Assembly (NCBI GenBank): GCA_036925085.1
Contig: JAUPFP010000013.1
Location: 4,117,155-4,181,154 of the forward strand
DNA: 64,000 bases
Reading direction: 5' to 3'
Source: Brachycybe producta
Lineage: Eukaryota > Arthropoda > Diplopoda > Playtdesmida > Andrognathidae
Position numbers and translations under genes: made by a program
Notes under the pieces: generated by a model
The model's input: the letters and a program-made list of their open reading frames with translations, nothing else
Database searches by the model: none
Told to the model about the DNA's origin: nothing
Part shown: positions 9,030 through 57,672 of the stretch, in pieces
Numbering within the stretch: position 1 is the first letter of the stretch
Layout: each line of letters begins with the position of its first letter

Positions 9030-9236
9030 ACAGGCAGTTAGAAATCGGGGAGAACATCAGTTGGCTCCGCCCTTGTTATGACGACCGGCAACTTCTAATT
9101 GGTTTGTTGTGTGGTTCGACGTTGAAAAGGGCGGAGCATCTGGACGTCAGACTACATAACCAACCAATTAGAAGTTGCCGATCGTCATAACAAGGGCGGA
9201 GCCAACTGAAGTTCTTCCCGATTTATAACTGCCTGT
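9030..9236. mobile_element. Palindromic 206-bp element, copy 1
   Basis: Near-perfect hairpin from ACAGGCAGTTAGAAATCGGG to its complement, with arms containing GGCTCCGCCCTTGTTATGACG and GGCAACTTCTAATTGGTT. The 9-bp duplication CTCAACTTG flanks it at 9021-9029 and 9237-9245. It has no coding capacity. Confidence 0.9.
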
Positions 9237-9479
9237 CTCAACTTGTGTGGTCCTTTATTTAGTGAGCTAAATTTAAATTTCTAATATTTCTGAGTGTATG
9301 TGGGACTTATATAACTCAAGTTTAAAGGAGATTAAAGTTGTCAATGATCACTTTTTTTTAAAAGCTCTCGAAGAAAAACGGCCTAGGATTTAAAATTTTA
9401 ATTTTGTATAAGTGGTCCATTGGTGGCGCAGAAATATGTGCCAAATAGAACTACATTAGCTCTATATATTGTAAATAAA

Positions 9480-9900
9480 GCGCCAAATTTAACAAATTCC
9501 AAAAAGTTTGCAATGATTCAATTTAGCGCTTGTTCAGTTTGTCATTTAATCAGGTTTTTTCTTTGGCGCTTATTCAGTTTTCTAGATTGTCGAGTCAGAT
9601 ATGTTTGAAATGATGTTGGTTCATATCAGCCTCTTATGTCTGTATTCACCTTATTGGAGTGAATTTGGCGCAGTGGCGCTTGCATATGCAGGCGTGTATT
9701 CAGTTTGGTGCTGCTTCTTTCCAATTGGCGCTTATTAAGTTTGGTGCTTGTTTCCATTTGGCGCTTATTCAAATTAATGTTTATTCAGTTTGGCGCTTCT
9801 TACAATTGATATTCGTTCAGTTTGGCATTTAATAAATTTGTTGCTTGTTCAGTTTGGCGTTTGTTCTAATTAGTCCATTTTTTTTTTCAATTTGGAGCTA
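9480..9900 (+). repeat. Degenerate repeats of TTGGCGCTTATTCAGTTTGG
   Basis: The words GGCGCTT, TTCAGTTTGGCGC and variants recur about every 25-35 bases, for example near 9525, 9565, 9670, 9725, 9760, 9800 and 9855. Divergence is high, so this is an old tandem array. Confidence 0.6.
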
Positions 9901-9957
9901 GATCAGCGCCACCATAGATCGGATTCTAAGGGGTGTCTTCTCTGGCAATCCTCCTCC

Positions 9958-10163
9958 ACAGGCAGTTATAAATCGGTCAGAACTTCAGTTGGCTCCGCCC
10001 TTGTTATGACGACTGGCAACTTCTAATTGGCGTTTTATGAAGTCTGACGTTACATGCTCCGCCCTTTTCAACGTCAGACTACATAACCAGCCAATGAGAA
10101 GTTGCCAGTCGTCATAACAAGGGCGGAGCCAACTGAAGTTCTCCCCTATTTCTAACTGTCTTT
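9958..10163. mobile_element. Palindromic 206-bp element, copy 2
   Basis: Starts ACAGGCAGTTATAAATCGG and ends with a degraded AACTGTCTTT. The duplication TCCTCCTCC occurs at 9949-9957 and 10164-10172, although the second lies in a CTC-rich run and could be chance. The central GACGTCAGACTACATAACC block matches copy 1. Confidence 0.85.
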
Positions 10164-10439
10164 TCCTCCTCCTCCTCCTCCGTTTTTTCTTTCGACGTTT
10201 CTCCCGTTTTTTTTGGTGACTTTATAGAAAAAAATGGCCCAACACTAGTGTGTAACCTCTGAGAAAAAAAAGGATTATAAATAGAATGATTAAGTAAGGA
10301 GCCAAAAAAAGATGTTAATGCTCTCTTAATTAATTATGAATGGAGATTGTTATTAAGTTGAATACAATTGTTCATTGAAGATTATAAACATTTTTAAAAA
10401 GGGATTTAATGAAATGAAATGAATAAGAAGAAAGGAAAT

Positions 10440-11060
10440 CTTTTTTTTCTTCTGAATATTTATATCTCGAATTTTTAAAACATGAGAAGAAGAAGAAGAA
10501 AAAGAAAAAAAAATCTTAAGTTTACAACAATAACGACAACAAAAAAAAGAATTGTATTTTTTATTTGGGACAGCAATTTAATGAGAGAAAGAAAACATGA
10601 AATTCGATTTTTTTTTTATTATTTTTTTTTCTGGTTCTTCTTTAACTTCCTTTTTTTTTTCTATACCCAAAATATATGTTGGTTGAATGTAGTTTAACAG
10701 GTTTCTGTGACGCTCACTTATCACATAAATCAGTTATCATTTGCCACATAGTTGGTTAGTTACCTGTTTGTGCATTATAAATACAGTATGTTTCAAAAAA
10801 GACATTTTACTTTTGATGAGTTTGTGTTTCACATGTTTCTTTAGGTTTCCCCCTCCCCCAATTGGTGCTTATGGCGATACCAATTTAAAAAAAAACCGGT
10901 AACTCATGCAAACTGGTGGAGAGACGCAAAGGAATGACGTTTTTTTTTCTGCTCAATTTCTCGTTCATCCCTATCCCACCTTATCCAATGTCCCCCCAGT
11001 ATCTTGAAATGTTGGGACAAATCTTTGAAGTGTGTCTCTTCCCCCCCCAATAATATCAAT
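10440..11060. other. Simple A- and T-rich sequence
   Basis: GAA-rich and poly(T) tracts at 10480-10660, then unremarkable intronic sequence with poly(C) runs near 10850 and 11041. No gene seen. Confidence 0.5.
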
Positions 11061-11069
11061 ATTTATGGC

Positions 11070-11830
11070 GCTACATTACAGTGCCACAAGAGCCATAACA
11101 AGTTAATTTTGCACCCTTTGCAAGAATGAAATTGTTCAAGTAGCATAACCCAATGTACGAATTTATGTTGACAATGTTAGCAGTTGGCCACAATCTTTTG
11201 GCAGAGCACTTGGCCCATTTAATGTTTGCCCAATGTTGCAAAAATACATATGACACAACAAGTGCCCACGTAATGTTGGCCCAAAAATCATAATATCAGT
11301 CATCGATGACAGGTTCAGCTATCATTGGGTCATCGATAGTGGGACCAACGGCCAGACACAATGTTGACCGGATCATTAGGACCAACATCTTTATATAAAC
11401 ACCAACAGTTGGCATTACATTGGTTCCTTGTTGGTTTGCTGCCTGGGTGGCGCACCTTCTTAGTATAATCATTCGAGCTCCTATTTTTATGGGCCTGAAC
11501 TTTGCACCCAATGGAGGTGTCTCACTCGCCTTACCATAGTTATGGCTCTGGGTGTCACAAAATGGTTGATGCGACTTAATTCTTAAGCACTACCACTGAA
11601 AACAATGACCTGATGTTAGTGCGAGCTACTGGTATGACCTTGATCACCACTCACAAACAAAACAGTGGTCGCCACTTGTGGTCAAACTCAACTACCCATC
11701 ACCATTGTGATGCAAAAAAAAAACCAGTGGCTCGTTTGAACACTCTCATATGTAATCAATGGTCTGCTATAGTCGGCCGCTTTATGTGGCGCCACAAAGC
11801 AAAGCTGGCCTAATTCAGTGTTAATAGCAA
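11070..11830. repeat. Degraded repeat rich in CAATGTTG words
   Basis: CCAATGTTG, TAATGTTGGCCC and ACACAATGTTG recur many times, and the later half contains GTGGCGCCACAAAG and paired GGTC/ACCACT words. The vocabulary overlaps with 13.36-13.82 kb and, more weakly, 27.4 and 32.5 kb. Probably eroded DNA-transposon sequence; no clean ends found. Confidence 0.4.
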
Positions 11831-11922
11831 TTGACTGCTATGTGAAGGAAGATAAAAAGAACTTTTTCAGGCTTTTTCCATTGATTAACATAGTGAATCA
11901 TGTTATCATTTCAAATTTGGAG

Positions 11923-11949
11923 AAAGAGAGAGAGAGAGAGAGAGAGAGA
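11923..11949 (+). repeat. (AG)n microsatellite
   Basis: Uninterrupted AG dinucleotides in intron 1. Confidence 0.9.
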
Positions 11950-12426
11950 AAAAAGATTATTTTTCGTATCCAAGAGTCAAGTGGCTCACAATATGATATG
12001 TTGTCATATCTTATTAACTTAAATCTGAATTATTATATTTCTGTCCTAATTTTATTTCTTATGAGTCGAAATTACCTTTTTATGATACTTTATATATCTT
12101 TATGGTTTAGAAACTTTATATAAAAAAATATTATAAAAGGAAGTCGTGATGTTATTATCGATATATATATCGATTTTTCTTAATTATGACTATAGGGCTC
12201 TTATTTTTATTCAATATAAAGCAAATGTTTCTGAATTAGTGGCTCAAAAACTAAATTGTTGAAGTAACAACGGTTAAAAAAACAACCCCTCTTTTAGATC
12301 AACCAACAATTCTAGTTAGAGGCTAGAATTCTGGTTAATTGCCAACTAAAAGTAACTAGACATCTGATGTACCTTTTCTGAGTAGAAAAAAAAGCATAAT
12401 TGCAGGTGCTGTAATGATGGTGATTA

Positions 12427-12732
12427 TACCTAGTACACACCTGATAATTTAAATGCATTTAAATAATAATTGCCCTACAGAGCCCTGTGAAGGGCAAACA
12501 AACAATATACCGAATTCAATTTATTCAGTTAATAATCTGAACATATTGAGTTAATACTTAAATATAATTTATATAAACTAGTGACATTAAAATATTGATT
12601 TAGTATTTCAATTTAAAATATTAATAATAAAGTCACTTTTTATTTGGTTCATGTCCTTAACTGGATTCCGTATAATTCACCTAAACACATTTAATTTGAA
12701 TTCATTTAACTCTTGACTGTGTACACAAGGTA
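12427..12732 (+). mobile_element. ~306-bp inverted-repeat element, TACCTAGTACACAC termini, copy 1
   Basis: The ends are imperfectly inverted: TACCTAGTACACACCTGATAATTTAAATG against TACCTTGTGTACACAGTCAAGAGTTAAATG. A second full-length copy lies in opposite orientation at 47250-47558. Both include an internal TACAGAGCCCTGTGAAGGGCA, which closely resembles the terminus of the elements at 4440 and 63067. Confidence 0.8.
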
Positions 12733-13208
12733 TAACTTCACAATAAATTGGCACTTGGGATATAAATTGAGAAAGATTTGCTTTGTCACATTTGATATTG
12801 CATAAAAATCCGAGCTCTAATCATTTACCTATTAAATAAAAATGAGTTAGGCTAAAAATGGATCACACAAACTTTTTTTTTTAGAACCTTAAAAACAAAC
12901 TCTTGAGTCGAGCCCCCAACCCCCAATAGGTATTAAATAAGGGGATACAAAGTAAAAAGGGTTAGTGTTCTTTTTTTCTTCTTCTTCCTTTGAGGTCTTT
13001 GACATTGTTTTTCTTAAATAGGAATTTCTCTTTCTATACTCAAGTGGGTTGTTTTTGTTGTTGTCTTTCTACTTTTTCTTCATTTTCTATTCAAAACTAT
13101 AAATTTAGCTTTTATTTTTTTTTTTTAGTGTTTTCTTTTCTTGAAGAAAAAAAAGTCTCAAATCGTCAATTTGTTGCCAAATTCACTGAAATAACAAATG
13201 GGGGACGG

Positions 13209-13226
13209 GAGGGGGGGGGGGGGGGG
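13209..13226 (+). repeat. Poly(G) tract
   Basis: A run of about 16 G residues after GGGACGGGA. One of many long G or C runs in the window. Confidence 0.85.
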
Positions 13227-13362
13227 TGGTGGAACAAACTCCATATTCAACAAAGAACATAAATGACATTTATCATTAATCAGGTTTATTGTTAATTTCA
13301 ACGGTTAAACAACCAGTTACATCGATTGTGTTCCACCGTCTTCCACTATCTTGAAATGTTGG

Positions 13363-13821
13363 GCCGGCTTCACACACTACTACTATTTTGTGACGCCACA
13401 AAAAGTGGTCATTTTTTTTTTTTGCAGACCACTGATTTACACAGGCGCATCTCTTCCCATCACTAACTTTTCGTTTGCCTCCACCCTTTTATGAGCGTCA
13501 GACTCAAATATCAACTAATTAGAAATTAAAAAGGGTGGAGGCATGTGACATCAGATCATGTAACTAACCAATTAGAAATTGATGACGCTCATAAAAGGGC
13601 GGGGTAAACGAAAAGTTAAGTGCTGGGCAAAGATGCCTGTCTGATTTGCATAGAGCTGACTTTTTTTTTGCGCCACACTGGTAATGAGTGGTTGAGTTCT
13701 ACTACAAGTGATGACCACACCGCCTTTTTGTCAGTGATGGTCAACATCATATACCAGTGGCAGAGGTTGATTCTATTGTGCGCTGCATAGTGTCACAAAG
13801 TGGTCCGTGTGAAGCCATCCA
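13363..13821. mobile_element. hAT-like element with a nested palindrome
   Basis: GGCTTCACAC near 13368 faces GTGTGAAGCC near 13811, and inside these TTGTGACGCCACAAAAAGTGGTC faces GTGTCACAAAGTGGTC. The host element is split by the palindromic insertion at 13441-13640, giving a relative age order. The superfamily is a guess from the end sequence. Confidence 0.5.
13441..13640. mobile_element. Palindromic 200-bp element, diverged subfamily
   Basis: Starts ACAGGCGCATCTC and ends GATGCCTGT. Its arms share the TAATTAGAAATT and GACGTCAGA-like core of the 206-bp family but carry different outer arms (AACTTTTCGTTTGCC, CTCCACCCTTTTATGAGCGTC). The flanking 9-mers CTGATTTAC (13432-13440) and CTGATTTGC (13641-13649) differ at one base. 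Confidence 0.8.
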
Positions 13822-13912
13822 TATTAAATTTTCATGTTTTAACAGAAAATTGGGAGCTAGATGATAGATAGCTTTTGTGTATTCTTAATTTGCTGAATTG
13901 GCCGCCTTTGGC

Positions 13913-14118
13913 ACAGGCATTTAGAAATCGGGAAGAACATAAGTTGGCTCCGCCCTTTTTATGACGACCGGCAACTTCTAATTGGTTTGTTGTGTGGTTC
14001 GACGTTGAAAAGGGCGGAGCATGTGACGGCAGACTACATAACCAACCAATTAGAAGTTGCCAGTCGTCATAAAAAGGGCGGAGCCAACTGAAATTCTTCC
14101 CGTTTTCTAAATGCCTGT
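13913..14118. mobile_element. Palindromic 206-bp element, copy 3
   Basis: Hairpin from ACAGGCATTTAGAAATCGGG to its complement, flanked by a perfect 9-bp duplication GCCTTTGGC at 13904-13912 and 14119-14127. The arms are nearly identical to copies 1 and 2, so it moved relatively recently. Confidence 0.9.
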
Positions 14119-14362
14119 GCCTTTGGCTCAGCGGCGTTCATGCGCCGCACATCATTAAACATTTTCAATAGAAATTTAACACTTGTGTGTAAATGGTGAA
14201 CCTTTTTTTTTTAAAAAAATTATATTTATCAAAAGTATTCTTTCCATTAGAATCCGCTAGCCTCCATGCAAGGGAGGAGAAGCAAGAAATTTAAATTATT
14301 TTAATAACTAACAAATAAATGAATTGCAGAAGGATTATATAAATCAGCCGTTTTTAAATGGA

Positions 14363-14524
14363 CAAGGCCGGATTAAGCCAAGAAGGGCCACTACCCGTTT
14401 TGGTGCTTGGACCCCATTTACACCTAATATTCAATAAAATGTCAATAATTTTAATATTTTTGCACGGGTCACCAAGAGCTCAAGGAGCCCCTAGACCTCA
14501 GCCGAGTGTATAAATCCGGCCCTG
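14363..14524. mobile_element. hAT-type miniature element, CAAGGCCGGATT termini
   Basis: Left end CAAGGCCGGATTAAGCC, right end AAATCCGGCCCTG. This terminus type is common in hAT elements. No clear 8-bp duplication remains. Confidence 0.6.
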
Positions 14525-14956
14525 TTTGTGGCATTTTTTTTTTGAAAATGACCAAATTTTAAGTTTGCAAATAAATTACTAAAAGATATTTCCCTTTAAG
14601 TTTCTAAAAAACTTTATAGTTGCTGCGAAAATGCAGAATAACCGAAAGTTCTATTTACATTGTTCCTCCTTCATTTGCATATTGAATGAAAAATAATTAC
14701 GAGCTTTTTTTTTTGGAAACGCTGACCACACTGATCAGGACAAGGTCAAAGAGGGTTGAGATTCCAACGAAATGTGTGGGTTTCAACACGTGACGTCAAT
14801 ACTTGATAAATACATAATAATCGAAGAAGATAAATTCATTGATAAATTACATCATTTTCTTCCCCTGAAATTTGATAGCAGATTTTTTTTTCACAAATAA
14901 TCTGAAATGATTTTTTTTCAAACATTCTTTACATTTTATTCTTGTTTGGTAATCGA

Positions 14957-15403
14957 CAGTAGCGTGGGTAGGATTTTCCTCTTGGGGGGGGGAATCATTG
15001 CCACCCTTCCCTACCGAAAAACACGACACAATACGCACCAATGACACAACCAGGATTCAGGTTTGAGAGGGATTAATCGATAATATCGATATCCAGTGAT
15101 TGAAATGGTTTATAGAACTTTATATTAATTATGAAATTATTAAAATAAACCCAGTACCCGATAGTAATTACTTATCAAAGATTAATTTTCATTTTTACTC
15201 AATTGTCTGTGTTTTCTAGACTTAAAAAATAATGCTGGACTGCAGAATACCTTCTTCTTAGGCTATCTTAAACGATTTTTTTTCGTTGGTGATGCTCCAA
15301 AAAAAGTGTCGCTTAGGGCGAATCACCGCCCCCTTTTTTCGTTAATTTTTAAGCCTTGGGGGGGAGACAAAACACCTATATCCCCCCCATACCTACGCCA
15401 CTG
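14957..15403. mobile_element. hAT miniature element with 8-bp duplication
   Basis: The ends CAGTAGCGTGGGTAGG and CCTACGCCACTG are inverted. The perfect 8-bp duplication GTAATCGA lies at 14949-14956 and 15404-15411. CAGTGGCGTAGG is a classic hAT terminus. The interior is A/T-rich with poly(G) and poly(C) runs next to each end, and no transposase. Confidence 0.85.
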
Positions 15404-15419
15404 GTAATCGAGATTAAAT

Positions 15420-17053
15420 TTCAATTTTCTTTAGTAGTGACGAGTATTTTTTTTTTTTCATTTTGTCTGCATTCCTAGATTATTGATATCTGATTTTATT
15501 TCAATATCCGGTTAATTCGAAAGACAAAAAAAAGGCAATAGTAGGTGGAGAATGTCTGTTGAAGTAATTTTATTCGATGGGAGGAGGGACCGAGAGAGGG
15601 AGAGAGAATAAGGGCAAGTGAGGCAAAGGTCATGACTCCTCTTCCTTAGATTCATATTTGGTCATCTTCGTTTTTTGAACATTCAATGATTTTTATAAAA
15701 TTAATAATAAAAGGATAAAAAAATTTAATTCATTTTGTCGTTATAACAATCAATGAATTTTGACCAGTTAAACTGACCACTCCTTTTTTTTTTTTTTTTA
15801 CAAATTCCATTTTGACTGAGAGAAATTAAATTTCACCATTTTAAAAGAGGGTATTTTAAATCTCGTTCAAGGTTGCTGCTATTTTCTTTTCAACCTATTT
15901 TCATTTTTATTAACTTTTTTTTAAAAAAACCCTGAAGAAATCAATTCTTGTTAATTTTGATAAGTTTTAAACATTTAATATATAACATTGAAACAATACT
16001 ATCGAATGGCACTCGGGAATTGTTTGTTACTATCGCGTTTACAGCCGGAATTTCACTTTCATGTCATTTTGGGTCTGTGTAAAAATCTTAATAAGGAAGA
16101 ACGTTAACTATAAACGTGGCATGGAAGTTAAAAAAACGCCAAATATTTAGTTTCTTGCATTTACCCTCTTCCATCCTCACAAACTTAATCCCTTTTCTCC
16201 TCATTCTTTTTTTTAGTAAAATTTTCGCTTTTGTTAACTTAGTGTTTGATGTTTGAATTTTTTTTGTTAACAATTGTTATGTTAGTTGCATGGGTGGGCA
16301 AGATGGACTTGTTTGATAGATGAAGGAAAGAATAAAGAAACCCCCACACAAAACACCCCCCCTGGCCTGTTCCCCCTCCGCCCCCCCCCCCCTCTTTTTT
16401 TGTTAAAAAAAGGTGTGTGGAATTTTTGATGAGTGGGGATTATAAAGGGCCCACCTTGGATAAAGAATTTGATAATATACTGTGATATACAATGTATGTC
16501 TATATTATACAACAGAAAATTATTGTGCTAAACAAAGATCAAGGGTTCAAAAGGTAGTTTTATGCAAATTATTGTTTTTTTTTAGTAATAAAAAAAGGAA
16601 GAAAAACGGTTTTCTGTTGTTTGTTTGTTAAGAAAAATAGGGACCAAGATGGGCGGAAAAGAGAGATTCCCTTTATTTTTTTTCAATGGAGTTTGTGAAC
16701 ATAAAAGGCCTCGATTACACACAGCACCACATTGCGTATTTTTTTCTCGCAGTATGTCTACTGAGCTATTAAGGCGCATTTACTAGTGAGCTGAAGATGA
16801 AATTCTTGTATTGAAGCAGTAGCTGAAAAAGAACATTTGTTTCAGCATCTTCAGCTGAAACAACCCATCTTAGCTTGGAATGTATTTGAATACACAAGAT
16901 CGTCGTCATGATATGACATTGATTTGCATGTAATACCGTTTTTAAATTCCTATTGGTTGATGACTTAAAAACGCATCTCTGTTTTGGTTATTTTCTATTA
17001 TATTAATCAATAATAATTAATATTTTATATATATTTTTTTTAAAAAAATACAG
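15420..17053. other. Intron 1, last 1.6 kb
   Basis: Poly(T) runs, a poly(C) tract near 16380 and, near 16797-16860, an imperfect hairpin built on AGCTGAAGATG / CATCTTCAGCTG. No gene seen before the splice acceptor at 17053. Confidence 0.5.
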
Positions 17054-17129
17054 AACATTCTGGACAAGTTTGAACCCGGTGCTCGCCAACTGATTTCAGC
17101 TGGCAAAGCTTATTTGAAGGCATTACACG
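17054..17129 (+). CDS. BAIAP2: IRSp53/BAIAP2-like I-BAR protein, second coding exon
   Basis: Between TTTTAAAAAAATACAG and a strong donor CACG/gtgagt lie 25 codons plus one base: NILDKFEPGARQL, then ISAGKAYLKALH, then Gly. With the exon at 7295 it reads ...LVENIYK-NILDKFEPGARQL..., which aligns without gaps to the start of the I-BAR/IMD helix of vertebrate IRSp53 (pattern ENVYK-T.ME.FNPSLRN.I..GK.Y.KAL.G). Lys and Arg positions fall on the membrane-facing amphipathic surface expected of the family. The intron phases (0, then 1) are coherent. The rest of the I-BAR helices, the SH3 domain and any WH2 motif must lie beyond the window. Confidence 0.9.
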
Positions 17130-18184
17130 GTGAGTCAACAATTTTTGATAATAATAAAAAAAAATTATTTAAATCATTTTTTCTTTCATGTTCTTCTTCC
17201 TTTACCGAAGTTGTTCACCATAATCATAATGATAATAATTTAAAATACTGTCAAAAGATAGGAATATATATTTAAACAAGTTTAGGAAATCCTATCAATA
17301 AAGTGGATATCCTGTGTTATGTGTTTGTTTCTTAACAAAATGCAATAATGCATTGAGGGGGGGGGGGGGGGAAGTGTAGGGAAATCACTTATTTAATAAT
17401 GATTATCGTCATTTGTGCGATTACACGACGTCATCTTTTATTTGTGTGTTATTTTGTATGTTTTTTTTTGTTAAATACTTGTGACAATGACTCATTTTTA
17501 TTACTTTGTTGAAGTTTGTGTTTTCAGGAGAAAAAAAAAATAGGAAAAAAAGGGGGGGGGAAGGTGAAAACTGATTGGAAAATCTTATTAGAAATCGTGA
17601 TTTGAAAGAGGGCGGGGCGTGGGGGGGTGGGGCAAAAAACAAGGATGTGTGGGTAAAAGATATTCCATATATTGTGTGATGTGGGTGGCTGACTGAATGA
17701 TTATTACAAATTTTCGATAAACAAATAGAATTTCTAAAAAAGAAATTTCTCATTGCAACATCATTAGGGTAGATCTGTACTATATATAGGCTATAATCAA
17801 ATGACTTTTACAACTGATTCAATTAGAAAAGTAATAAAATTAAGTCGAAGATAATTAATTAGTACTTGAAGAAGGTTCACAATGTATAAAGTAGGTCTAT
17901 AATAGGTGAACCTCAGTTTTGATCCTTGACTTACGTTTGTTGAAAATCGGTATAGGTATTTATAGCCTTAGAACGGTTGGGGGTCACTACAGCTACCAAG
18001 GCTCACAAGCGCTACTAAGGGGAGAACAGCTACTTGGGTCACTACAGCTACCAAAAAAATTAATAGACCTTTTGTTCATCAAAAGGGTCACTACAGCTAC
18101 CAAAAAATAGGGGGACAAAATATAGACCTTTTTTATCACTTTTTCGTCACTACAGCTAAAAAAATAACCCTTTCTCCCTAAAAT

Positions 18185-18500
18185 AACGGAACCTTACCTA
18201 ATAAAACCTTACCGAACCTTACCTAATAAAACCTTACCGAACCTTACCTAACCGAACCTTAACGATCCGAACCAAAAAGTACCGATACTAACCGAACCTA
18301 ACCGATCCTAACCAAACCTAACCGATCCTAACCAAACCTAACCGATCCTAACCAAACCTAACCGATCCTAACCAAACCTAACCGATCCTAACCAAACCTA
18401 ACTGAACCTAACCGATCCTAACCAAACCTAACCGATCCTTACCGAACCTTACTGAACATAATGAAACCTAACTGAACCGAATGTAATCTAAACTAAACAT
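18185..18500 (+). repeat. CCTAACCGATCCTAACCAAA tandem array
   Basis: About six 20-bp units (two 10-bp halves, CCTAACCGAT and CCTAACCAAA) between 18290 and 18440, flanked by diverged CCTTACCGAACCTTACCTAA units. The CCTAA core is the complement of the TTAGG-type telomere repeat, but the periodicity is not telomeric. Confidence 0.85.
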
Positions 18501-18671
18501 ATTGATAAATAAACAGGCCTATATTTTTTGGTAGCTGTAGTGACCCTTTTGATGAAATAAAGGTCTATATTTTCTTTTTGGTAGCTGTAGTGACCCTAGT
18601 AGCTGTAGTGAGCCTAGTAGCTGTAGTGACCCAGTTAGCTGTAGTGAGCCAGTCCCCTTAGAACATATCTT

Positions 18672-18802
18672 AGGGTCGTATTAATAATGATTGCTAAGTC
18701 AAAGCTAGTGCTAAACTGATGAACTTTTGTTAGGAGCTTTAATATAACAGTTGATGAGTTTAACTCTGCCTTTGACTTAGCTATCATTAGGAATACGATA
18801 CA
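18672..18802. repeat. Hairpin, CGTATT...TAAGTCAAAG family, copy 1
   Basis: GTCGTATTAATAATGATTGC then TAAGTCAAAGCTAG faces CTTTGACTTAGCTATCATTAGGAATACGA. It carries CTAAACTGATGAAC facing GTTGATGAGTTTA inside. Confidence 0.7.
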
Positions 18803-18924
18803 ATACCCTATAATACCTACCGATTGATTTTCAATAAACTTAAGTCAAGGATCAAAACTGAGGATCAAAACCAATTATACTTTATACATTGTGAACTTTC
18901 TTCAATTACTAATAGTAATAAATT

Positions 18925-19050
18925 GTCTTAGACTTAAATGCTTAGTCAAAGGTTGAGCTAAACTCATGAACATTTGATAGAACTTTAATATAACAGTTGA
19001 TGAGTTTAGTTAGCACTACCTTTGACTAAGCATTTCATGATCCTTAATTT
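18925..19050. repeat. Hairpin, TAAGTCAAAG family, copy 2
   Basis: AAATGCTTAGTCAAAGGTTGAG then CTAAACTCATGAAC faces TTGATGAGTTTAG then CTTTGACTAAGCATTT. Closely related to the hairpin at 18672; half of it also appears at 2185-2215. Confidence 0.7.
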
Positions 19051-19682
19051 TTATTATTCTGTAATACAGTAAATAATTTCTAAAATGTTTAGTGGTGTTA
19101 TTTCCCCCCACAAAGTCAAACACTATTTTTAGAGAATCTTAAAATTAGTTAACTTTCGTTTAGAAAAATACATTGTACATTAATTGATGATTATATAGTA
19201 TTTTCACTACAATTAAAATTTTTAATGGCAATTTGTAATTTTTTTTATAAACTCAAGAAAGTTATCGAAATTGGAAAGAAAAAGTTTTGATTTTTTTTTT
19301 AAACAATTCACTTTTGTCCTTTCGCTTTTCTAGTTTCTAATAAAACTTTCTCAGTTCTTCATTGCATTTTGCTTCTAAGAAAAAAAAATCGTAGAAAAAG
19401 ATGATTAAAAACAAGTATTAATCCTGTCTTGAGGCAAGTAAAGACGTTTTGAAACTAGTCATAACTGAAAGGATTTATCATTTGAATAGCCTATGATTAT
19501 TTTTGAATGTTTATTATTATATTATATAGCTGTAGGTCAAATTGCAGGTCCTGTTATGTGAGGGTCGAAAAAAAAACAGCAACAACAAAAAAACCCAAAT
19601 TTGAAGCACCTTCAAAGATAAAAAGTTCATTGTTTTCTACCGACGGCCAAAAAACCTTCTGTCAGCCTTGACCAGTTTTTTT

Positions 19683-19888
19683 ACAGGCAATTAGAAATCG
19701 GGATAAACAGAAGTTGGCTCCGCCCTTTTTTAGGACTAACGGCATCTTCTAATTGGTTTGTTGTGTGGTTCGACGTTGAAAAGGGCGTAGCATGTGACGT
19801 CAGACTACATAACTAACCAATTAAAGTTGCCTTTCGTCATAAATAGGGCGGAGCCAACTTCTGTTTGTCCCGATTTCTAATTGCCTGT
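19683..19888. mobile_element. Palindromic 206-bp element, copy 4
   Basis: From ACAGGCAATTAGAAATCGGG to AATTGCCTGT. Flanked by G(T)n on both sides, so the duplication cannot be judged precisely. Arm identity with the other copies is high. Confidence 0.85.
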
Positions 19889-20888: not shown

Positions 20889-20992
20889 CAAAAAACATGT
20901 TTTTTGTTTAATTCTCTTTACAATTACAATTAGTACTCTGCTAGCAGCCAAATAGGCCTATGGCAAAGGGACATAAAAGTCCACATGCAGCA

Positions 20993-47558: not shown

Positions 47559-47640
47559 TAAAGCCCTTGTTTCCACTTGATGAATCTGGGCGAAATCCAA
47601 CTGGAGAAAAAATGTCAGTTTACTGTAGTCAAATTAGCTA

Positions 47641-47690
47641 CAGTATAGCGTCGATTATTGGAACCATCGATTATCGGAAGTTCTGAACCA
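47641..47690 (+). mobile_element. pogo/Tigger-type end
   Basis: CAGTATAGCGTCGATTATTG, then CATCGATTATCGGAA, preceded by TA. This CGATTAT-rich terminus is typical of pogo-like elements. The sequence downstream keeps TTGATTATCGGAAC near 47808, but the other terminus is missing. Confidence 0.55.
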
Positions 47691-48018
47691 ATTTTTTTTA
47701 CTCATTCTTATGGAAATACTACTTATGGAAATAAAAAAAATCTTTGCAATCTGTTTCTTCTTACTTTTCTCCACGTTTTTTAATGGGAGTTCAATTATAT
47801 GAACTTTTGATTATCGGAACTATGTATATCCGACATTAGCAACCCCAGTCTTATCACCAGTGGTCGTTTCCAACTTCAGAAGCCGCTCGTGTGCTAAGGT
47901 CGATGTCTTTTCATAGCGATACAATGTTAACCACAAGCCAGCCACTAGCGACAACATTTTGTAGTCGAACTCGACTGGACAACTCAAAAGTGAACTATCT
48001 GCCAAGGCATATTAAACC

Positions 48019-48273
48019 AGTGATTCCCAAATTTTGTTTGCTCACAGTACACATTATTTTGTGATTGACAAAATTGCTGCTCACTGATAAAACTCACAGC
48101 ACTCTGGTCACTAGTGTGCTGCAGTGTACAACCTTTGAAAACCACTGGCGTAGTGCATGTTTACTTCTAATAAGTTTTGTTAATTTTGCTTTTTCCAATA
48201 AAGTTAAAATGTATTTGAAAATATTTTGCGACACGCCTAGCCAAAACTCACGGCACATCCTTTGGGAATCACT
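48019..48273. mobile_element. hAT miniature element(s), CAGTGATTCCCAAA termini
   Basis: CAGTGATTCCCAAATTTTG at 48019 faces both TTTGAAAACCACTG near 48145 and CTTTGGGAATCACTG ending 48273. Flanking 8-mers TATTAAAC and GAGTAAAC match at six positions. The three ends suggest a composite or nested pair. Confidence 0.65.
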
Positions 48274-48274
48274 G

Positions 48275-48420
48275 GAGTAAACCATAAATTGCCATTTCTC
48301 ATCAATATTTACATAGAAATGGTGTTATTTAGAGGTAAAGATAAGAGTTAAATATAATCTGGATCTAATTAAAATGCAATAACATTACGGGAAATGATGA
48401 ATTGTGACAAATGTTAACTC
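48275..48420 (+). repeat. Dispersed repeat, AAACCATAAATTRC family, copy 2 (fragment)
   Basis: AAACCATAAATTGCCATTTCTC, ATCAATATTTACATAGAAATGG, GAAATGATGAATTG, in the order of the copy at 28.6 kb. Confidence 0.65.
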
Positions 48421-48527
48421 GTGTCAGATTTAGACTTTTTTGAAAAGGTTCTAAATCATAAACAAAACTTACAAACAAGTAAATGTACACAATTTTCAGC
48501 TGTCTTATATATGGCTAATACACATTA

Positions 48528-48790
48528 GGAGTCGTTGTTGCCATACATTGTTGCGGGGTTGCTCCGATACAATGTTGCGGGGTTGCTCCGATACAATGTT
48601 GCAGAATCGCAACTGACGCAATTCAGACCCGCAACAATGTTTCAAAGTTTCGCATTTCAATGTGACTCAAGAAACGTGAATCTGAACGGACGCGCAATTC
48701 AGCCCCGAAACATTTCAACATTGTTGCGGGTCTGAATTGCAACTAACGCGATTCAGACCAGCAACAATGTATCGCAACAAAAGCATCCTC
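48528..48790. mobile_element. CAACATTGTTGCGGGTCTGAAT repeat element, copy 1
   Basis: Edges GTTGTTGCCATACATTGTTG and CAACAATGTATCGCAACAA are inverted. The interior carries repeated CAACAATGTTGC, TCAGACCCGCAACA and GTTGCGATTCAGAC words in both senses, and a direct 21-bp duplication of the TTGCGGGGTTGCTCCGATACA type. Confidence 0.75.
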
Positions 48791-49749
48791 GGTGTGTACT
48801 ACTACTAGCCTTTAGGTTATGAGGAAGTTGGTTAAAATAGGAGAAAAATACAAGTCCGCGCAAACCAGACAACGGTCATTCATCTCCATTTAAATAAAAG
48901 CTTGTAATAGAAAAAAACCAGTTCTAAACATTTCGATATATCAAAAAAAAAATGTGATACATATTGCTCTAGAGTAAACGTACCCCCTCCCCCTTTCTCC
49001 CCAAAAAAGGTGAACAGAATGTGTTATTATAAAATAAATGGATTATTTTCTACTCGTTATTTTTTTTTGTCTTTTTCATTTTCCGTAATGAACAAAAAAA
49101 AAGTAGAGCAACCAAGCGCCTATAGGCTTAGCTTATATATAGTTAATCAATTATAAAAGACAGGAAAAGAAGTCATCATCAGTTGTGTAGTTTTTCTCTC
49201 AGTTTGTGTGTGTTTGTTGTATATTCAGTTCTTATATATAAGAAACAAGGCTAGACATTTAAAAGGGCGCCAATGATGATATTTCGTTTTAATACTTCCT
49301 TTAAATCTGTGTCCACTGTTTAGATAGAGTGCATGTGATTATAGAGCTTCATAGAAACCGACTTGACCCCTTTTTTGTCGTTTCTTATTGTAATATTATA
49401 GCAACTGTTTTGTGTCTGGTTGTGTTTTTAGTAGCTTGTGATTTTGACACTGTCATTCACTGGCCCGATATAACACTTTGCCTATTTACACCTTCTCGTA
49501 GGTCATCATCATCATCATTTTGTATTGGTCATCATTTTTTTTCCTTTCCTTTTCTTCGTCTTCCTCTTGTGTTTTATGTCCATTAAGTGGACCTTAGGTT
49601 ATTTGGTGTGGTAGTGATGGGTGGTTTTGAATGTCTTGTATTGTAACAAAAGCAAATATTCAATTATAGAAGTGCTTCAGTATCTACTGTTGACCTTTTG
49701 GTTTTGACCCCTCAAAGCTAGATTTCTTCACCACATGCGTATTGATGGC

Positions 49750-50260
49750 GGCGGTGGTGGTGGTGGTGGTGGTGGTGGTTGGTCTGCCACTGCTATCATA
49801 TTAATTGAATTGAATTGAACTGTTACCAATTGAGTGGGTCTTTTTTTTCTCTCAATAGATCTCTTCTTTTCTTATCTATGATTATGATGACACACACACA
49901 ATTGGCAATTCTCCCATTTTTTTTAGTTCAATCGATGATGATGATGATGATGATAATGATGGTGATTTTGGAAAGTGGTGATGTCATTTCGAACAAAATC
50001 ATTGAATTTGGTTTTGTGTGTGTGTGTGTGTTTGTCTTCTTGTCTGTTGATGGCCATAACATGAAAGAAAATGGCATTAGTGTTTAGTTTTCTCACTGTT
50101 ATTTTTTTATTGGGTCACTTGATTGCTTTGTAATGCTAAAGAAATAAGGGAAGAAGACATATTATGTATGGTGGCGAATTGTTGACCACATCTGTTGAAG
50201 ATGTTTAATAAGTGGCACACACACACACACACGCACGCACACACACACACACACACATGT
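49750..50260 (+). repeat. Cluster of microsatellites: (GGT)n, (ATG)n, (TG)n, (CA)n
   Basis: GGT run at about 49752-49780, GATGATGATG at about 49934-49955, TG run near 50014, and a CA run with CG steps at 50216-50257. Confidence 0.9.
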
Positions 50261-50989
50261 GGTTCCTTTGGGTTAAGTTTATTCTGTTTGTTTAAAATCC
50301 AATAAGGTCCAAATTCAATGAAGTCTATATTCAATAAGGTCCAAGTTCAAGAAGAAAACAGGAACCTTCTAAACAGGATTTCAACATTGAAAACCAAATG
50401 TTTTATTGAGTACCTTTGAACTGTTTTTTTTTTTTAATTTTAGAACTCTCCTCAGAAGTTTTAAGTTGAAGTTCAGTATTGTCAAGTTTCCATTTAGAAA
50501 TTAAAAAATGGTTTAAAAAGAATAGAATTACAAGTAATCTAAGTTAGTTGTAAATTCGTTTTAGAAGAAACTTAAAGAAAACAATTGAATGTTTTTCATA
50601 AACTGTTTGTTTGATATATTTGAAGAAAGATATTATTATAGAAATACTTCTTGGTAAACCTAAAACGTTTATGTAATTAAAGTTAAATCAAAAAATGCAG
50701 AGAAATTCAACAAAATTGTTCGTTTCATGTAAATAAGTAATTACATAGAAAAAAAGTACAATTAATTAATTGTATGAAGCCAACTAATAGCTTCAATCAG
50801 AAACAATAGCGAAAATTGCAAAGTACAAAGTAACCACAAAAAAAAATTTTTTTCTTAAAAAAATAAGTGAAATTATACGACTGTTGACTTGATCTGTTTT
50901 CACTTGATGAAAATTATTAAATTGTGAAAATGTAAACTTTAAAAACATGGCAGTTATGGTCATATCAGATAACGCTTTTTCATTAGTTG

Positions 50990-51370
50990 AACAATATATG
51001 TGACAATATATTAGGAGAAAAAGAATTCGATATGTGAGTACAAACGTGGCCCGCCTATTCGCCATAATGGTTTGCCTGATTATGTTAGGTCAAGTGAAGT
51101 GAGAAAACCCCTATCGCCCTACCACTTCAACTAAACCATAAATTGCTGCTTCTCCTAGTGTATTTTTTTATAGGTAGAGCTTATAATTAAATCTAGCCAA
51201 CATTTAATTTAAATGCATTTCGTCACCTGAAATGATGAATAATCTAAAGGATTTGCTAAAAATAAGAAGCTCAGAAAAACCAACGAAAAATCTAACAACG
51301 GCTAACAAGTTGAAACGAAAGTTTAATAATTAAAAAGTTGAATTTATTCAACTAAAATTTAAAACTACTT
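50990..51370 (+). repeat. Dispersed repeat, AAACCATAAATTRC family, copy 3
   Basis: ACAAACGTGGCCCGCCTATTC, TAATGGTTTG, TTATGTTAGGTCAAG, AAACCATAAATTGCTGCTTC, GAAATGATGAATA, AAAAGTTGAATTTATTCAACT. Same order as the complement of 28.6-29.0 kb. Confidence 0.7.
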
Positions 51371-51399
51371 TTTTGTCTATTCAGTTTAACACGCATTTT

Positions 51400-53630
51400 T
51401 TACTCACATTTTCAACGAGGCCTAAATGCAAATTTCCAAAAATAATGCAGTTTCTGATTTTGATTTATGATTAAACATCATAGAGTATCCCAAAAAAACG
51501 AGGGGTTTGAGCCCGTCATTTTGCTTTTTTTTTTGGTGAATTTTAATCAAATATTTGACCTGACTCTTACGCTTACATTACCTACATATGTAAAATGTTT
51601 TGAGTTTTTTTATTTCTTCCTCTTCTGAAATAGAAAAGTATAGATTCACTTTCAGAAAAATGTTGAAATTACTATTGAACCACGTTTAAACATAAATTTT
51701 TTTTAATCCAATCTATTACGAAAGATCGAAGAAGTCAAAAAAAAAATTTCGTATCAAAACAACATTTCAAGAAGTATTTTTATTGCTTTAAATTTATAGA
51801 CAAAATCTCAATGTTTGAGTCCAGAAGATGACATCTTCAAAAGAAATATATATAAATTGATATATTTTGAGATGTCCTGTCATCATCTTATTTATACTTG
51901 AGAACATTGAAATGTTTTTTTTTTGCTATGAGCAATAAAATACTTGAAAATGTTGTTTTGATAAGATTTTTTTCTCTCTTTCTCTCTCTGCCTTTTATTA
52001 TTTGAAATCATTCTCCTCCATCTTGTATGAAACTTATTTTATAATTTTTATATAGTAGGCCCTATGTCCAGTTTTTAAATTTTGTGACTTTTTTGTCTCT
52101 TTTTTTCTGTTTTATAAAAAAAAAGACTTGAGGCTATTTTTTTTGCCTTCTAGTCATCTCTCAAAAATTGCAGGGTGATCTTAAAATTGTATGTGACATC
52201 AGCAAATATGTCTTGCTAATGGTGTTTTTGCCATTGCTGTTGTTTGCTTCTACTACTTTTTGTTGACACTGTGGTTTGTCCATTTGTTATGAGAGCTGTC
52301 ATTTACAGTTGACATTTGCAAATTTTTTTGAAGGGGTTTTTTTTCTTCTTCTTTTTTTCCTACTCACAAAAATGTCCAAAAATGTGTGGTCTCTTTTTAG
52401 TAACCGCCATAAGAGTGTTTAGGGTCTAAGGTCAACATAGAATTCTTTTTTTTTTGAGGGGGTTGTAAGTTGTAACCCTACCATATGAGTGTAGATAAAA
52501 AAAAAAGAAACCACCGACCGACCGTATGTCATCTTTCTAGTTTGTGTCTCAAAGAATCAGAAGAAAAAAAAGTTTTAAGAGACTTTTAGCAGAAATGTTT
52601 AGCTTTATATATAGACCACCTCTCTATAATACTATAGAAAAGAGAGAAGAAGAAAAAAAGAAAGTGTATTTGGATTGTGTAGGGGTGTCAAAATGTGGGT
52701 GGAGATGAAGCAATGGGGAATGATTTCTGAAAGATTTGTTCTCTTCTTCACCCTTGGTTGATTTTTCCCGTTAAAATAATTCCACTGTCGATTCTATTAT
52801 GATCACATTCAATTTGTTTCAATGTTAAGATGGGGTTTTGACTTTTCTATCTGCCTGTCTGTCTGTCTTGGTATTAAGGTCCTGCAATTTTCTCTTAACC
52901 CTTGAATCTCAGTGTTTTCATTGTGTCCTCAAATCCAAAAACGCATTTTTTTGTGTTATGTTACAAAAGGTTCCGGAGGTCGGAAGTGATCCTGTCTTAA
53001 CATAAGAGTATATCCGGATTTTTGGGACCCTATGTTAAGCATTTCTATTGTTTCTTTCTTATATTATGTTGAGGTTTGGAGTTTAAGGGGTTTGGGATGT
53101 GTAGTTGTGCTTTTGAAGATGGTGGGTCGTGTTAAGAGAGGGAAGTTCTTTGTCAATTTTCTAAAGCATCTTCATAACTTGGCAAATGTATCCTGTTTTA
53201 TTATTTACAAGCTTTGAAACAACAACAACAACAAAAAAATCTGGACATACGCTCGTATTTTATTCATTGCTAGTAGTACAGTACTTCAATATGTTTTTAA
53301 TTGATTCGGTGAAAGGAATGGTTACTGAATGTTGAGTTTGGAAATGTACTATTTGAAACTGAAAAATCAGCCCTGAAGTCACGTGCAAATGGACGCAATT
53401 ATAAAATCACGTCGTCGTATAACACAACTTGGAATTCAACAGTTGAATAAACCGTGAGGTTACGTTATTACAGGGGTGACCCCCAAAGCCAGTGGAGAAT
53501 TCACCCCCCACCCGCTTTCCAGTTTTAAAATGATGGAATTTTACATTGTTTGCCTAATCGTGTTGTGAATGAGTTTCAATTGGCCATAACATGTGTTTGA
53601 AACAAAGTCTGTAAACTTTGGAATAGATTA
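51400..53630. other. AT-rich intronic sequence
   Basis: Poly(T) and T/C tracts, no supported gene; short frames here lack codon or motif support. Confidence 0.5.
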
Positions 53631-53639
53631 AAATTCTCC

Positions 53640-53720
53640 CTATTTTGCGAGCGTAGCGAGTGAGCAATTATTTTATAGTATACTCTTGCTATCAATTCCA
53701 GCGAGCGTAGCGAGCCATAA
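53640..53720 (+). repeat. Two GCGAGCGTAGCGAG words
   Basis: GCGAGCGTAGCGAGTGAGCAA at 53646 and CAGCGAGCGTAGCGAGCC near 53699; a variant AGCAAGCGTAGCGAGTAAA occurs near 45926. Each is an imperfect palindromic CG-rich word in AT-rich sequence. Confidence 0.7.
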
Positions 53721-53862
53721 AAACAGCACTTATCCTATGACGTATAAAAATGGCTGAAACACACTACTTTCTTTTAAAATATAAATTAAATAATAAAATA
53801 ATAATTTTGGATTTTCGCCCATTCTGATTATTTTATAAAAATATTTTAATACAAAATTTCAA

Positions 53863-53882
53863 TCACCCCCCCCCCCCCCCCC
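53863..53882 (-). repeat. Poly(C) tract
   Basis: About 18 C residues directly followed by a run of A. Confidence 0.9.
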
Positions 53883-55254
53883 AAAAAAAAAGGCAAACGG
53901 CGAGTTGCTCACCAGACACCAGGCTTGGCACATGGACCACTTTTGAGTTGTCGAGTTCAACTGCAAAATGTTGTTGCAGGTGGCTGGGCTGTGGATGCAA
54001 TGTATTTCTATGAAAAGACGCCTGGCCTTTGACCTCGGCCCTTGACCTCGACCACTAAAAGTGGTTCGTATGCCACAAAGCACAAAGATTGCAACAACAA
54101 CAACAACAAAAAACGTCTTAACATGTAGCTGTTGAAGAAACATCTGCTGTTGGTTGTTGTTGTTAGCAAATTGTCGACTCTTACTGCCTTAAAGGTGGCA
54201 ATCACTGCAAGCACAGATGCTATGTAATATGTTTGTTTCTTTCGTAGTTTTCCTTTTTGTTGTTTTAATCAAACAGAATGTGTAACGATGACTATCTTTT
54301 TGATTTGTATTCGAATAAAAGAAACTTTGTATCATCAACATAATATTCTTTTATATGATATTCAGTATAAATTATCATTGTATATTTTCTAAAAATTAAT
54401 TTTCAAAAAATATTTTTTTTTGTTGTCAGTGTGTTTTGTTTTGTGAAAACAGCAGCTGACGTGATGACAAAAGAGTTTTGCGGTAGAAAAGAGAGAGAGA
54501 GAGACTGAAATCTCTCTATCTTTTAAACATCTAATAACAAAACAGTGAAACTGTAATACGACACATCTACATATTAGCAACTATTATGTGTAGTAGGGTT
54601 CCCTTTTATAAATTGAACCAGAATTCATAACATGTCTTTTGTTTTTCATTTTTTTAAAACACAACTTATCAGAGAAAGAAGACGGGGGGAACAAAAACAA
54701 CAACATGTGCAACACATGAAAAGTTGTTCAAAGCCGTTTTTCCATTAAACATGATTTTTCTCTCACAACACATATTGCGGTTTTGACTTTTATCTTTTCT
54801 ATCTCAACAACACTTTTGCTTCTTTTTTTTTTAACAAAGTTTAACACAAATAAATACACATATATTTTTGTATGTTTAAATTGTGAACAAATTTGCACCG
54901 TTGAATTTTAGTCCTACTGAGTTTATTCTGTTATAAAGAGGGAGGGGGGGAAGATTTTCTAAAGGAACCAGTCATAAAGAAAGAAAGAAACTTGTATTAA
55001 TAATAGATCTCTGTGAATAGTGAATGGAGGAGGAGGGAGGTTATTTGCAGTATTCATTGTATATTATGGTTGAAAAGTTACTCATGGGTCAAATCTTTAT
55101 AGAATTATTTATTTTTCTTACATCTGGTTTTAAAATAAAAATCATGAAAGATTTTCTTTTGTTAAAATAACTACGTTAACAAGGTGGAGAGAAAAAAATC
55201 TACTTCAAATGTTATCCTTAGATTTATTACAAAACCTTTAAAGTTGGTTTTATA

Positions 55255-55400
55255 TAACCGTATTCTGGAACGTTGCTTAAGGCAAAGTGGAACTTAAACA
55301 AAGCTAAACTTAAAAATGCTTCATAGATACAATTTAGTTTTGTCTTACGTCATTTTTTAAGTTTAACTTCTATTTTAAGCAACGTTATTTTTAATAAGGA
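55255..55400. repeat. AACGTTGCTTAA inverted-repeat element, second copy
   Basis: GAACGTTGCTTAAGG faces TTTTAAGCAACGTT; inner AACTTAAA / TTTAAGTTTAACTT also pair. Same family as 2251-2385. Confidence 0.5.
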
Positions 55401-55963
55401 GGTGTTAGGTTTGAAAGTTTTTAGTAGCAAACATTTGGTTGAACTGGTTTTAAAGTGGAAATGCATCTCGAATGCTGGGTATTTCTGTCTTTCAGGACAA
55501 AATTAAAAGAAACATAAAATGTTTTAGAAACTAGAAAAGCAATTAAGAGAAGAAACACAACAAACGCACTGAAAAACCATCAGAAAACATATAGAAATTA
55601 AAAAGCATAATATTTCTATGGTCTTTTGGAATTTGGCGCTCGTGTTAAATACCATACAGAGGGAAATTCAGTTGGATTTTTTTAGGCTTGTGTGTTCCCC
55701 CCCCCCCCTAAAATTCTAAAATCCTTCCACAAAAATGCTTTACCAAAAAAAAAAAATAGTAGGCCCCCTATTTAAGGTAGATTATTTATGCATATTAATT
55801 GGCCTGATCAATTTTTTTTAGTACAAATTAAAATTAGCAATTGTTTAATTTATGTTTCTGTTTAAATTAAAAAAAAATACATTTTGTCACATGAAATATT
55901 GTAGTTCCTGTGACTTTTGCGTCCTAGGCGATGGCCAACCTAAAGGGTATTACTCACCAAGCA

Positions 55964-56190
55964 TGCTTTGTTCCTGGGCTGAATCGTGTCAGTTGCGATT
56001 CAGACCAGCAACAATGTTGAAATGTTACGGAAACTGAATCGCGTCAGCTCAGATTCATGTTTCTTGACTCCCATTGAAATGGGAAACTTTTAAACATTGT
56101 TGCGGGTCTGAATCGCGTCAGTTGCGATTTTGCCCCGCAACATTGTATCGGAGAAGCCCAGCAACAATGTATCGCAACAAGGAATCCTAG
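55964..56190. mobile_element. CAACATTGTTGCGGGTCTGAAT repeat element, copy 2
   Basis: CTGAATCGTGTCAGTTGCGA, CAGCAACAATGTTGAAATG, CAACATTGTTGCGGGTCTGA, GCAACATTGTATCGGAG, ending CAACAATGTATCGCAACAA as in the copy at 48528. Confidence 0.75.
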
Positions 56191-56199
56191 TTTGTAACT

Positions 56200-57440
56200 T
56201 TACTAGCCATAAATTCGCCAAATGATAGGGCCGGCTCTTTTTCGAATACACTTTCATTTTATTTTTCAAAACGGTGGAATATTTTAAGTTTTATATATAC
56301 GTTTCTTCTTGTGAAAGTTAGTAAACTTGTAAAAAAACAATTGCAGTTAAACTTTAGCAAGACAGTATAATTTGTACAATGTTTTTCAGCGTTTGATATA
56401 GCGCTCTATATACATACATTATATTATAAATACATGTATATATATTGTATATGTTTAGAAGAAACATATCAGATATTCAAGAAGAAGTGTTTTATATGTA
56501 CTTCTTAATTACTGCGTAACTAATTAGGAAAACCATTGCGTTATTTTTAATGGTAACTTTCTTTTTTTAAGAAAAGAAGGCCGGAAATTTCATAATTAGT
56601 ATGCAAGTTGACGCCTTGCTTTTCTAGTAATATAAACCTTTACTTTTCATTTCTCTCTCTCTTTGGTGCATATGGGGTTCTTATCTTATTTCTTCCCTTT
56701 ATGAAACCTAACTCTTATATAAAAGATTAGAAATTCCAAATACTTATATTTTCATTGATTTTTTTCTTCTTCTTCTTTTCACTTTTTAGGTTTTTTTTTC
56801 TTCTAATCTTAAAAAAACCCGGAAATAGGCCTTATTACAATTTATATTTTAGTAACTGTATTTTTTTTTTTTCAATTTGATTTTGATCTACATATTATAT
56901 AAGTGTGTGTGACCTTTTTTTTTCTCTCTCTTCACATTTATACACTGTAAAGTGTACATTAAAATTAACCTACTGTTTTTTTTTTCTTTCTTCTTCTTCT
57001 TCCTTTTTGTGTTCTTTATTAAGACAAAAGATAGACTTAAGGGTGTGAAATTAGTTTTTATGCAAATGAGCAAGTAACTAACACAAGTGAGAAAAAAAAA
57101 TGTAACAAACATGTTTTAATACAGTGTTTAAACATACAAAATACATTGAGGAGGATAGAAGGAAGGGGGTTTTAAATGAGACCAACATTAGCTTATTTTT
57201 ATAAGTGATCTGATTAAAAGGACCGTCAATCAGGTAAGGTTAGTCATTAATCTCTTCTCAAGAATTACATATTAGGTTAGAAAGGAAGGTGGAGCACTTA
57301 GTAATCCTTTTAAACTTAGCTTCTTCTATGCAAACAAAATCTCTCGTTATTCTTTTTATCTTTTTTTTGTGTGTGTGTGTGTAATGTGTTCATTTTTGCT
57401 GTTGTTGTTTTTGAACGATTTCAGTGTTAGATGGCGCTTT
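56200..57440. other. AT-rich intronic sequence
   Basis: T/C-rich tracts near 56760-57010, a TG run near 57370. No gene seen. Confidence 0.5.
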
Positions 57441-57467
57441 TAGAATTAGAAAGAAACTTTTACAAAG

Positions 57468-57672
57468 ACAGGCAGTTAGAAATTCGGAAGAACATCAGTT
57501 AGCTCCACCCTTGTTATGACGAACGCAATTTCTAATTGGTTGGTTATGTAGTCTGACGTTACATGCTCTGCCCTTTTCAACGTCGAACCACACAACAAAC
57601 CGATTAGAAGTTGCCGGTCGTCATAACAAGGGCGAAACCAACTGAAGTTCTCCCCGATTTCTAACTGCCTGT
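57468..57672. mobile_element. Palindromic 206-bp element, copy 5
   Basis: ACAGGCAGTTAGAAATTCGG to AACTGCCTGT with the perfect 9-bp duplication TTTACAAAG at 57459-57467 and 57673-57681. The central segment is in the opposite sense to copy 1. Confidence 0.92.

Follow-up and report, generated by a model that had tools for sequence, protein, structure and literature searches.

A 206-bp palindromic family of miniature inverted-repeat transposable elements in Brachycybe producta, probably moved by a Mutator-like transposase

A 64,000-nucleotide stretch of the Brachycybe producta assembly (442 contigs, 295.3 Mb), comprising C13:4117155-4181154 (contig JAUPFP010000013.1) and hereafter called the window, carries copies of an abundant hairpin that belongs to a palindromic family of miniature inverted-repeat transposable elements (MITEs). 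We put at roughly 80% the probability that this family is moved by the transposase of a Mutator-like element (MULE) making a 9-bp staggered cut, a reading that is probably the best one, yet unproven, and that rests on the length of the target duplications and on exclusion. The elements are short and non-coding, are present in high copy number, end in inverted repeats and are flanked by target duplications, as expected of MITEs. MITEs of MULE type are an ordinary, known kind, and it is this abundant palindromic family that is probably new.

The consensus obtained is 206 bp long; its outer 75 bp on either side are complementary except for one mismatch and enclose an asymmetric centre of about 56 bp. 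Searching the whole assembly, as the initial annotation had proposed, located both 16-bp ends 190-220 bp apart at 2,897 places (one base left free; control 0), and the 26-bp end motif ACAGGCANTTAGAAATCGGNNNNAAC had 3,722 forward and 3,801 reverse occurrences, 7,523 in total, against 0 and 0 for the reversed-pattern control. Forty kb sampled as ten 4-kb stretches at round-number positions held two full copies of this main family and one fragment of a second family, from which about 15,000 main-family copies can be loosely extrapolated, an estimate with a wide Poisson range. Divergence from the consensus was measured in 46 full-length copies (the best-hit sample: 5 from the window, 41 from 29 loci, two window duplicates in locus L001 having been dropped) and ranged from 1.0 to 11.7%. 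The loci are the top matches, with 40 of 1,391 candidate places scored, so this sample is biased to young copies. The recent activity that had been suggested is partly supported, by the youngest copy at 1.0% and by many at 2-3%, but others lie at 8-12% even in a sample favouring the young; the claim of low divergence is likewise mixed, as the five main-family copies in the window differ from the consensus by 1.9-11.7%.

A second sample, which avoids the best-hit bias, consists of the first 40 elements in the end-motif listing along contig C1, so chosen that one end or both are intact; three were not full-length in the alignment and were left out (n = 37). Perfect 9-bp duplications abut the element in 14 of these 37 copies, duplications with at most one mismatch in 21, and perfect 8-bp duplications in two, while mispaired flanks gave 0 of 1,332 at 9 bp both for perfect matches and for those with at most one mismatch. 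The best-hit sample gave 14/46, 16/46 and 6/46 for the same three classes, with mispaired controls (the left flank of one copy against the right flanks of others) of 0.05, 0.14 and 0.00%. The 9-bp length predicted from the window copies therefore holds genome-wide and is clear, whereas 8 bp may be the length in a minority: the two samples together have eight perfect 8-bp duplications, and five of these become 9 bp when one end is shifted by a single base, which weakens any claim of an 8/9-bp mix; of the three that cannot be re-read in this way, one lies in a T run. The odds of a MULE are left unchanged by this re-reading because they rest on the 9-bp duplications. Target-site preference was weak (28 sites). 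Chance similarity is ruled out by the genome-wide motif counts together with the mispaired-flank controls.

Insertion was also examined by joining the flanks of 20 insertions whose duplications are perfect at 8 or 9 bp, one duplication being removed, and comparing the joined flanks with all sequence collected for the analysis. One of these 20 queries (locus L021) matched across the junction at nine other places with 75-90% identity, and the three of these matches that were inspected all run through the insertion point, showing that the host repeat exists elsewhere without the element. The other 19 queries gave no junction-spanning match elsewhere, as expected for unique flanks.

Duplications mostly of 9 bp (8-10 bp for MULEs) and long terminal inverted repeats, here arms of about 75 bp with a single consensus mismatch, are both MULE features. 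The genome also holds MULE transposases, with PF10551 (MULE) matching at 21 places, long open frames (694-1,088 codons) being present at 17, and the MULE domain scoring above the Pfam cut-off in six of six translated frames. An approximately 4.19-kb MULE at C13:545813-549985 and on C28, with ends ACTAGCGTYTGGAGG and copies 99.45% identical, was probably active recently; its duplications, read by eye, are AAAGAAGAT (9/9) on C28 and CCTTTTATC/CCTATTATC (8/9) on C13. MULEs making 9-bp duplications have moved in this genome, but with ends other than ACAGGC. The Mutator-like fit that had been proposed is partly supported, by duplication length and the presence of MULE transposases.

Several observations weigh against the assignment. 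The search for an autonomous element sharing these ends, also proposed initially, recognized no ACAGGC-ended transposase-bearing element around the 21 PF10551 places or two others matched by PF21056, whose flanks were partly read, with an automatic end scan that is insensitive and missed the 4.19-kb MULE. The only MULE resolved at both ends starts with ACTAGCG, and one end of another was resolved. At the remaining MULE genes, no facing ACAGGC ends were recognized other than those of the hairpin copies themselves (isolated ACAGGC/GCCTGT words occur elsewhere in these loci, not each of them checked as an end), and these hairpins look independently inserted, the copy at R40 5040-5246 having its own duplication GTTATAAAA. 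Furthermore, 30/46 and 16/37 copies in the two samples have no abutting 9-bp duplication at up to one mismatch, for which the age of the copies is a likely reason.

The hAT and P superfamilies usually make 8-bp target duplications. That the MITE is instead moved by one of these, or by Merlin (8-9 bp), would be in line with the missing ACAGGC-ended autonomous MULE and with the perfect abutting 8-bp duplications, particularly the three that resist re-reading as 9 bp. We nevertheless judge another superfamily improbable, as perfect 9-bp duplications dominate those of 8 bp (14 to 6, n = 46; 14 to 2, n = 37), which does not follow the hAT/P 8-bp rule, and as the Merlin transposase (PF12762) had 0 candidates in the genome in a search (control matched in 1 of 14 genomes) that did not extend to hAT and P transposases.

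Individual candidates for a MULE source were rejected. Hairpins occur close to several MULE genes, but a composite transposon of two hairpins flanking a MULE gene is rejected, since the R40 copy has its own duplication, the copy on the opposite side has none, and hairpins are generally dense. ACAGGC and GCCTGT are both absent from 7.3 kb at the MULE at C1:4996294. A giant palindromic MULE whose arms each contain a long transposase frame extends on C5 from about 5398638 to beyond 5409800 (>10.8 kb read), with relatives on C2 and C38, the compared parts of the three copies being about 99.7% identical; its left end was placed near AGGGTCAGAC and is not ACAGGC. PF21056 matched at 8 places, two of them new (C6, C9). 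These two hold genes of 464 codons that share 91% identity and lie next to copies of the hairpin, but no transposon with the hairpin's ends was recognized there. FLYWCH (PF04500) matched at 24 places, 21 of them grouped on C94, C16, C18 and C15; the groups at C16 1568594-1586352 and C94 225359-235439 are reminiscent of mod(mdg4)-type loci.

Nearly whole-length palindromes are also known from MADE1-type mariner MITEs, which resemble the present family in this respect and differ in their TA duplication and in belonging to another transposase superfamily. The shape had been called unusual, and it appears less so given the MULE/Foldback and MITE families described in the parts of the literature consulted. 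Tm1 of root-knot nematodes, a Mutator/Foldback family with a MULE-family transposase, 9-bp duplications, MITE-like members and long inverted-repeat ends, is described there as having composite ends whose motifs are internally redundant, and a member that encodes a transposase (PMC3169594), whereas the arms here are simple, copies run to thousands and the stretches read yielded no member encoding a transposase. Tetris/DAIBAM of Drosophila virilis is, in the sections consulted, likewise non-autonomous and foldback-like, has 8-10-bp duplications and no autonomous partner found, and was placed in Mutator by duplication length; Tetris has three structurally complete copies and a modular foldback build with a link to a satellite (PMC4079207), whereas the present family is compact, a 206-bp palindrome with thousands of copies. 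Muta1 of the arthropod Aedes aegypti shares 8- or 9-bp duplications and long terminal inverted repeats (145 bp) according to the portions consulted, but is 3,198 bp long, encodes a transposase and moves in yeast (PMC5225508), while the present family is non-coding. Foldback elements have long inverted repeats composed of internal tandem repeats; no tandem array was found within the six window copies, and only the long palindrome is common to them and Foldback elements. The family is not named in the consulted parts of the literature on the relatives found (Muta1, Tm1, Tetris, MuTAnT); a description elsewhere is possible.

The two arms of the element have changed in concert. Complementarity of mirrored positions was compared with 2,000 shuffles in 34 C1 copies with 80% or more identity to the consensus and in the 46 best-hit copies; the shuffles ignore relatedness, and independent events are far fewer than copies. 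In the C1 set the pair 8/199 is complementary in 27 of 34 copies (13.1 expected) and exceeds all shuffles, as do 20/187, 21/186, 22/185, 23/184, 27/180, 28/179 and 29/178, with 46/161 above all but 25; the inner pairs 56/151 and 57/150 show no such excess, 1,714 and 1,686 of the shuffles reaching the observed value. The best-hit set agrees for 8/199, 22/185, 27/180, 28/179 and 29/178 (0/2,000 shuffles), 46/161 (1), 23/184 (14) and 21/186 (58). Between the consensus of the A-type (23 copies) and that of the G-type (34 copies) there are differences at seven mirrored pairs (8, 22, 23, 27, 28, 29, 46 and their mirrors) and one-armed ones at 21 and 151, but none in 47-150. The T-type (9 copies) has a paired difference at 8/199 and lone differences at 21, 46 and 151. 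The main subfamilies carry complementary changes in both outer arms around an identical centre. Clustering of all 80 copies gave six groups, a reference of n = 39 and groups of n = 22, 10, 5, 3 and 1 that differ from it at 7, 1, 6, 2 and 7 paired and 1, 1, 3, 0 and 7 one-armed positions, respectively. Within copies, in turn, 406 changes are one-armed and 19 two-armed and complementary, against 2.4 two-armed predicted by chance, an excess that may reflect unresolved subfamilies. The A..T arm pair occurs at 1,077 of the 2,897 complete places genome-wide. The first 50 complete A..T-type elements along C1 (22.2 Mb) are strongly biased by region, with 26 before 7.1 Mb, 3 at 7.1-17.28 Mb and 21 at 17.28-20.6 Mb.

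One reading of this pattern is that founders already altered in both outer arms were amplified, and that their copies then decayed mostly one arm at a time. We tentatively suggest, while holding it rather doubtful, that a hairpin-templated terminal conversion with a tract bounded to the outer ~46 bp founds each new main subfamily and leaves the inner 56/151 mismatches uncorrected. Against such conversion, a similar pattern in the arms would result if selection kept the two transposase-binding ends equal; the best-hit pairs 5/202, 16/191, 20/187, 36/171, 54/153 and 57/150 are not above chance and 56/151 is weak (144 shuffles); and the small clusters of n = 3 and n = 1 differ in the centre too (6 and 2 positions). 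That selection by the transposase for equal ends produced the paired changes without any arm-to-arm copying is a serious possibility, if somewhat short of even odds. The confinement of paired changes to the outer 46 bp, the expected zone of transposase binding, and the unpaired 56/151 and 57/150 of the C1 sample speak for it, while the ratio of 7 paired to 1 one-armed position in the largest non-reference cluster and the three pair types (G-C, A-T, T-A) common at 8/199 speak against it, the cluster argument being tempered by the groups of five and ten. Arm-to-arm copying and selection both fit the pattern.

Under MULE mobilization, a transposase made elsewhere in the genome would bind the two equal ends (ACAGGC...GCCTGT) of an element whose body is almost entirely terminal inverted repeat (two ~75-bp arms and a ~56-bp asymmetric centre) and excise it; the element would then be joined at a 9-bp staggered cut, repair of which would produce the duplication. 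During this cycle of transposition and repair the outer ~46 bp of the arms may, with less confidence, sometimes be recopied from each other, which would yield founders with the same change in both arms, settled copies mutating mostly one arm at a time.

A regulatory repeat, kept for host function as a hairpin RNA or for its motifs, seems very improbable. The consensus does contain GGGCGGAGC and TGACGTCA, which we take to be GC-box/CRE-like motifs, and the DNA fold of the copy at 9030-9236 is far stronger than its shuffles (-93.3 kcal/mol against a mean of -24.0; z = -19.7). The target duplications, the empty site and the mostly one-armed decay are instead the pattern of unconstrained transposon copies, and an Rfam search of the window gave no family match, which also rules out a known RNA family as the identity of the hairpin.

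Hairpins were confirmed at all six places where the initial annotation had reported them (Table 1), as were the three perfect 9-bp duplications and the imperfect one. The six-copy family was correct for five copies, which align over their full length as one 206-bp palindromic family; the element at 13441 is not a diverged copy but belongs to a separate, related second family. The copy at 9958 has TCCTCCTCC (9/9) on both flanks, yet lies within the CTC/TCC run already noted, and the sole duplication of the copy at 19683 is GTTTTTTT, 8 bp within a T run. The arms of the three window copies listed by the repeat finder (25 of 50 pairs shown) measure 92-96 nt and are 89-90% complementary.

Table 1. 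Hairpin elements and perfect target duplications in the window (window positions)
Feature	Position	Strand	Remarks
Main-family palindromic element	9030..9236	+	207 bp; 1.9% from consensus
Target duplication CTCAACTTG, perfect	left 9021..9029, right 9237..9245	.	flanks of 9030..9236
Main-family palindromic element	9958..10163	-	right end worn (CTGTCTTT); 8.3% from consensus
Second-family element	13441..13640	+	200 bp here; ends ACAGGC...GCCTGT; duplication CTGATTTAC/CTGATTTGC, 8/9
Main-family palindromic element	13913..14118	+	ends ACAGGCAT...ATGCCTGT; 5.3% from consensus
Target duplication GCCTTTGGC, perfect	left 13904..13912, right 14119..14127	.	flanks of 13913..14118
Main-family element	19683..19888	+	ends ACAGGCAA...TTGCCTGT; 11.7% from consensus
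Main-family palindromic element	57468..57672	-	5.9% from consensus
Target duplication TTTACAAAG, perfect	left 57459..57467, right 57673..57681	.	flanks of 57468..57672

Among 20 stretches of the second family, with end pairs chosen by best score, which favours matches, a perfect 9-bp duplication was found in two, an 8/9 match in four and no end pair in four, the rest being weaker. A third hairpin type of about 142 bp was seen at L009:1289-1430, L102:864, R32 5412 and R35 5343-5484, and its flanks are constant, as if a larger repeat carried it. The pattern ACAGGCANNTSTGCCCAGCA, which covers this third type and the second-family ends, occurs 2,257 + 2,268 times genome-wide (control 0). Among the first 100 places listed, facing third-type ends (ACAGGCAATTGTGCCCAGCA) lie about 3.03 kb apart at C1:5451792-5454816 and C1:9104213-9107255; these stretches are possibly larger elements or nested insertions. 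Another facing third-type pair, 591 bp apart, encloses a main-family hairpin, and nesting is therefore one possible cause of wide end spacing.

Other features were observed in passing. Nested inverted repeats at window positions 4738-5246 (59-nt arms, 97% complementary) form another palindromic repeat. A degenerate (AACCTAACCG)n array at 18205-18478 is reminiscent of arthropod telomere units, and a 279-codon open frame at 256-1095, which has no Pfam match, resembles on reading by eye the end part of a non-LTR reverse transcriptase. Contig C442 (15,359 bp) is mitochondrial, with COX1 free of stops under the invertebrate code and, by eye, an ND1-like frame upstream of COX1 on the opposite strand and COX2-like and ATP6-like frames downstream. 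A COX1 match nearly as strong, with an internal TAA, at C1:12697416-12698753 is probably a nuclear copy of mitochondrial DNA.

The family is an abundant repeat of this genome, and masking is advisable in annotation because its strong hairpins could yield false small-RNA or inverted-repeat calls. It also offers a clean data set for asking which transposase amplified the MITEs and what makes both ends of a transposon change together. If terminal conversion is true, it would spread a change at one end to the other at once.

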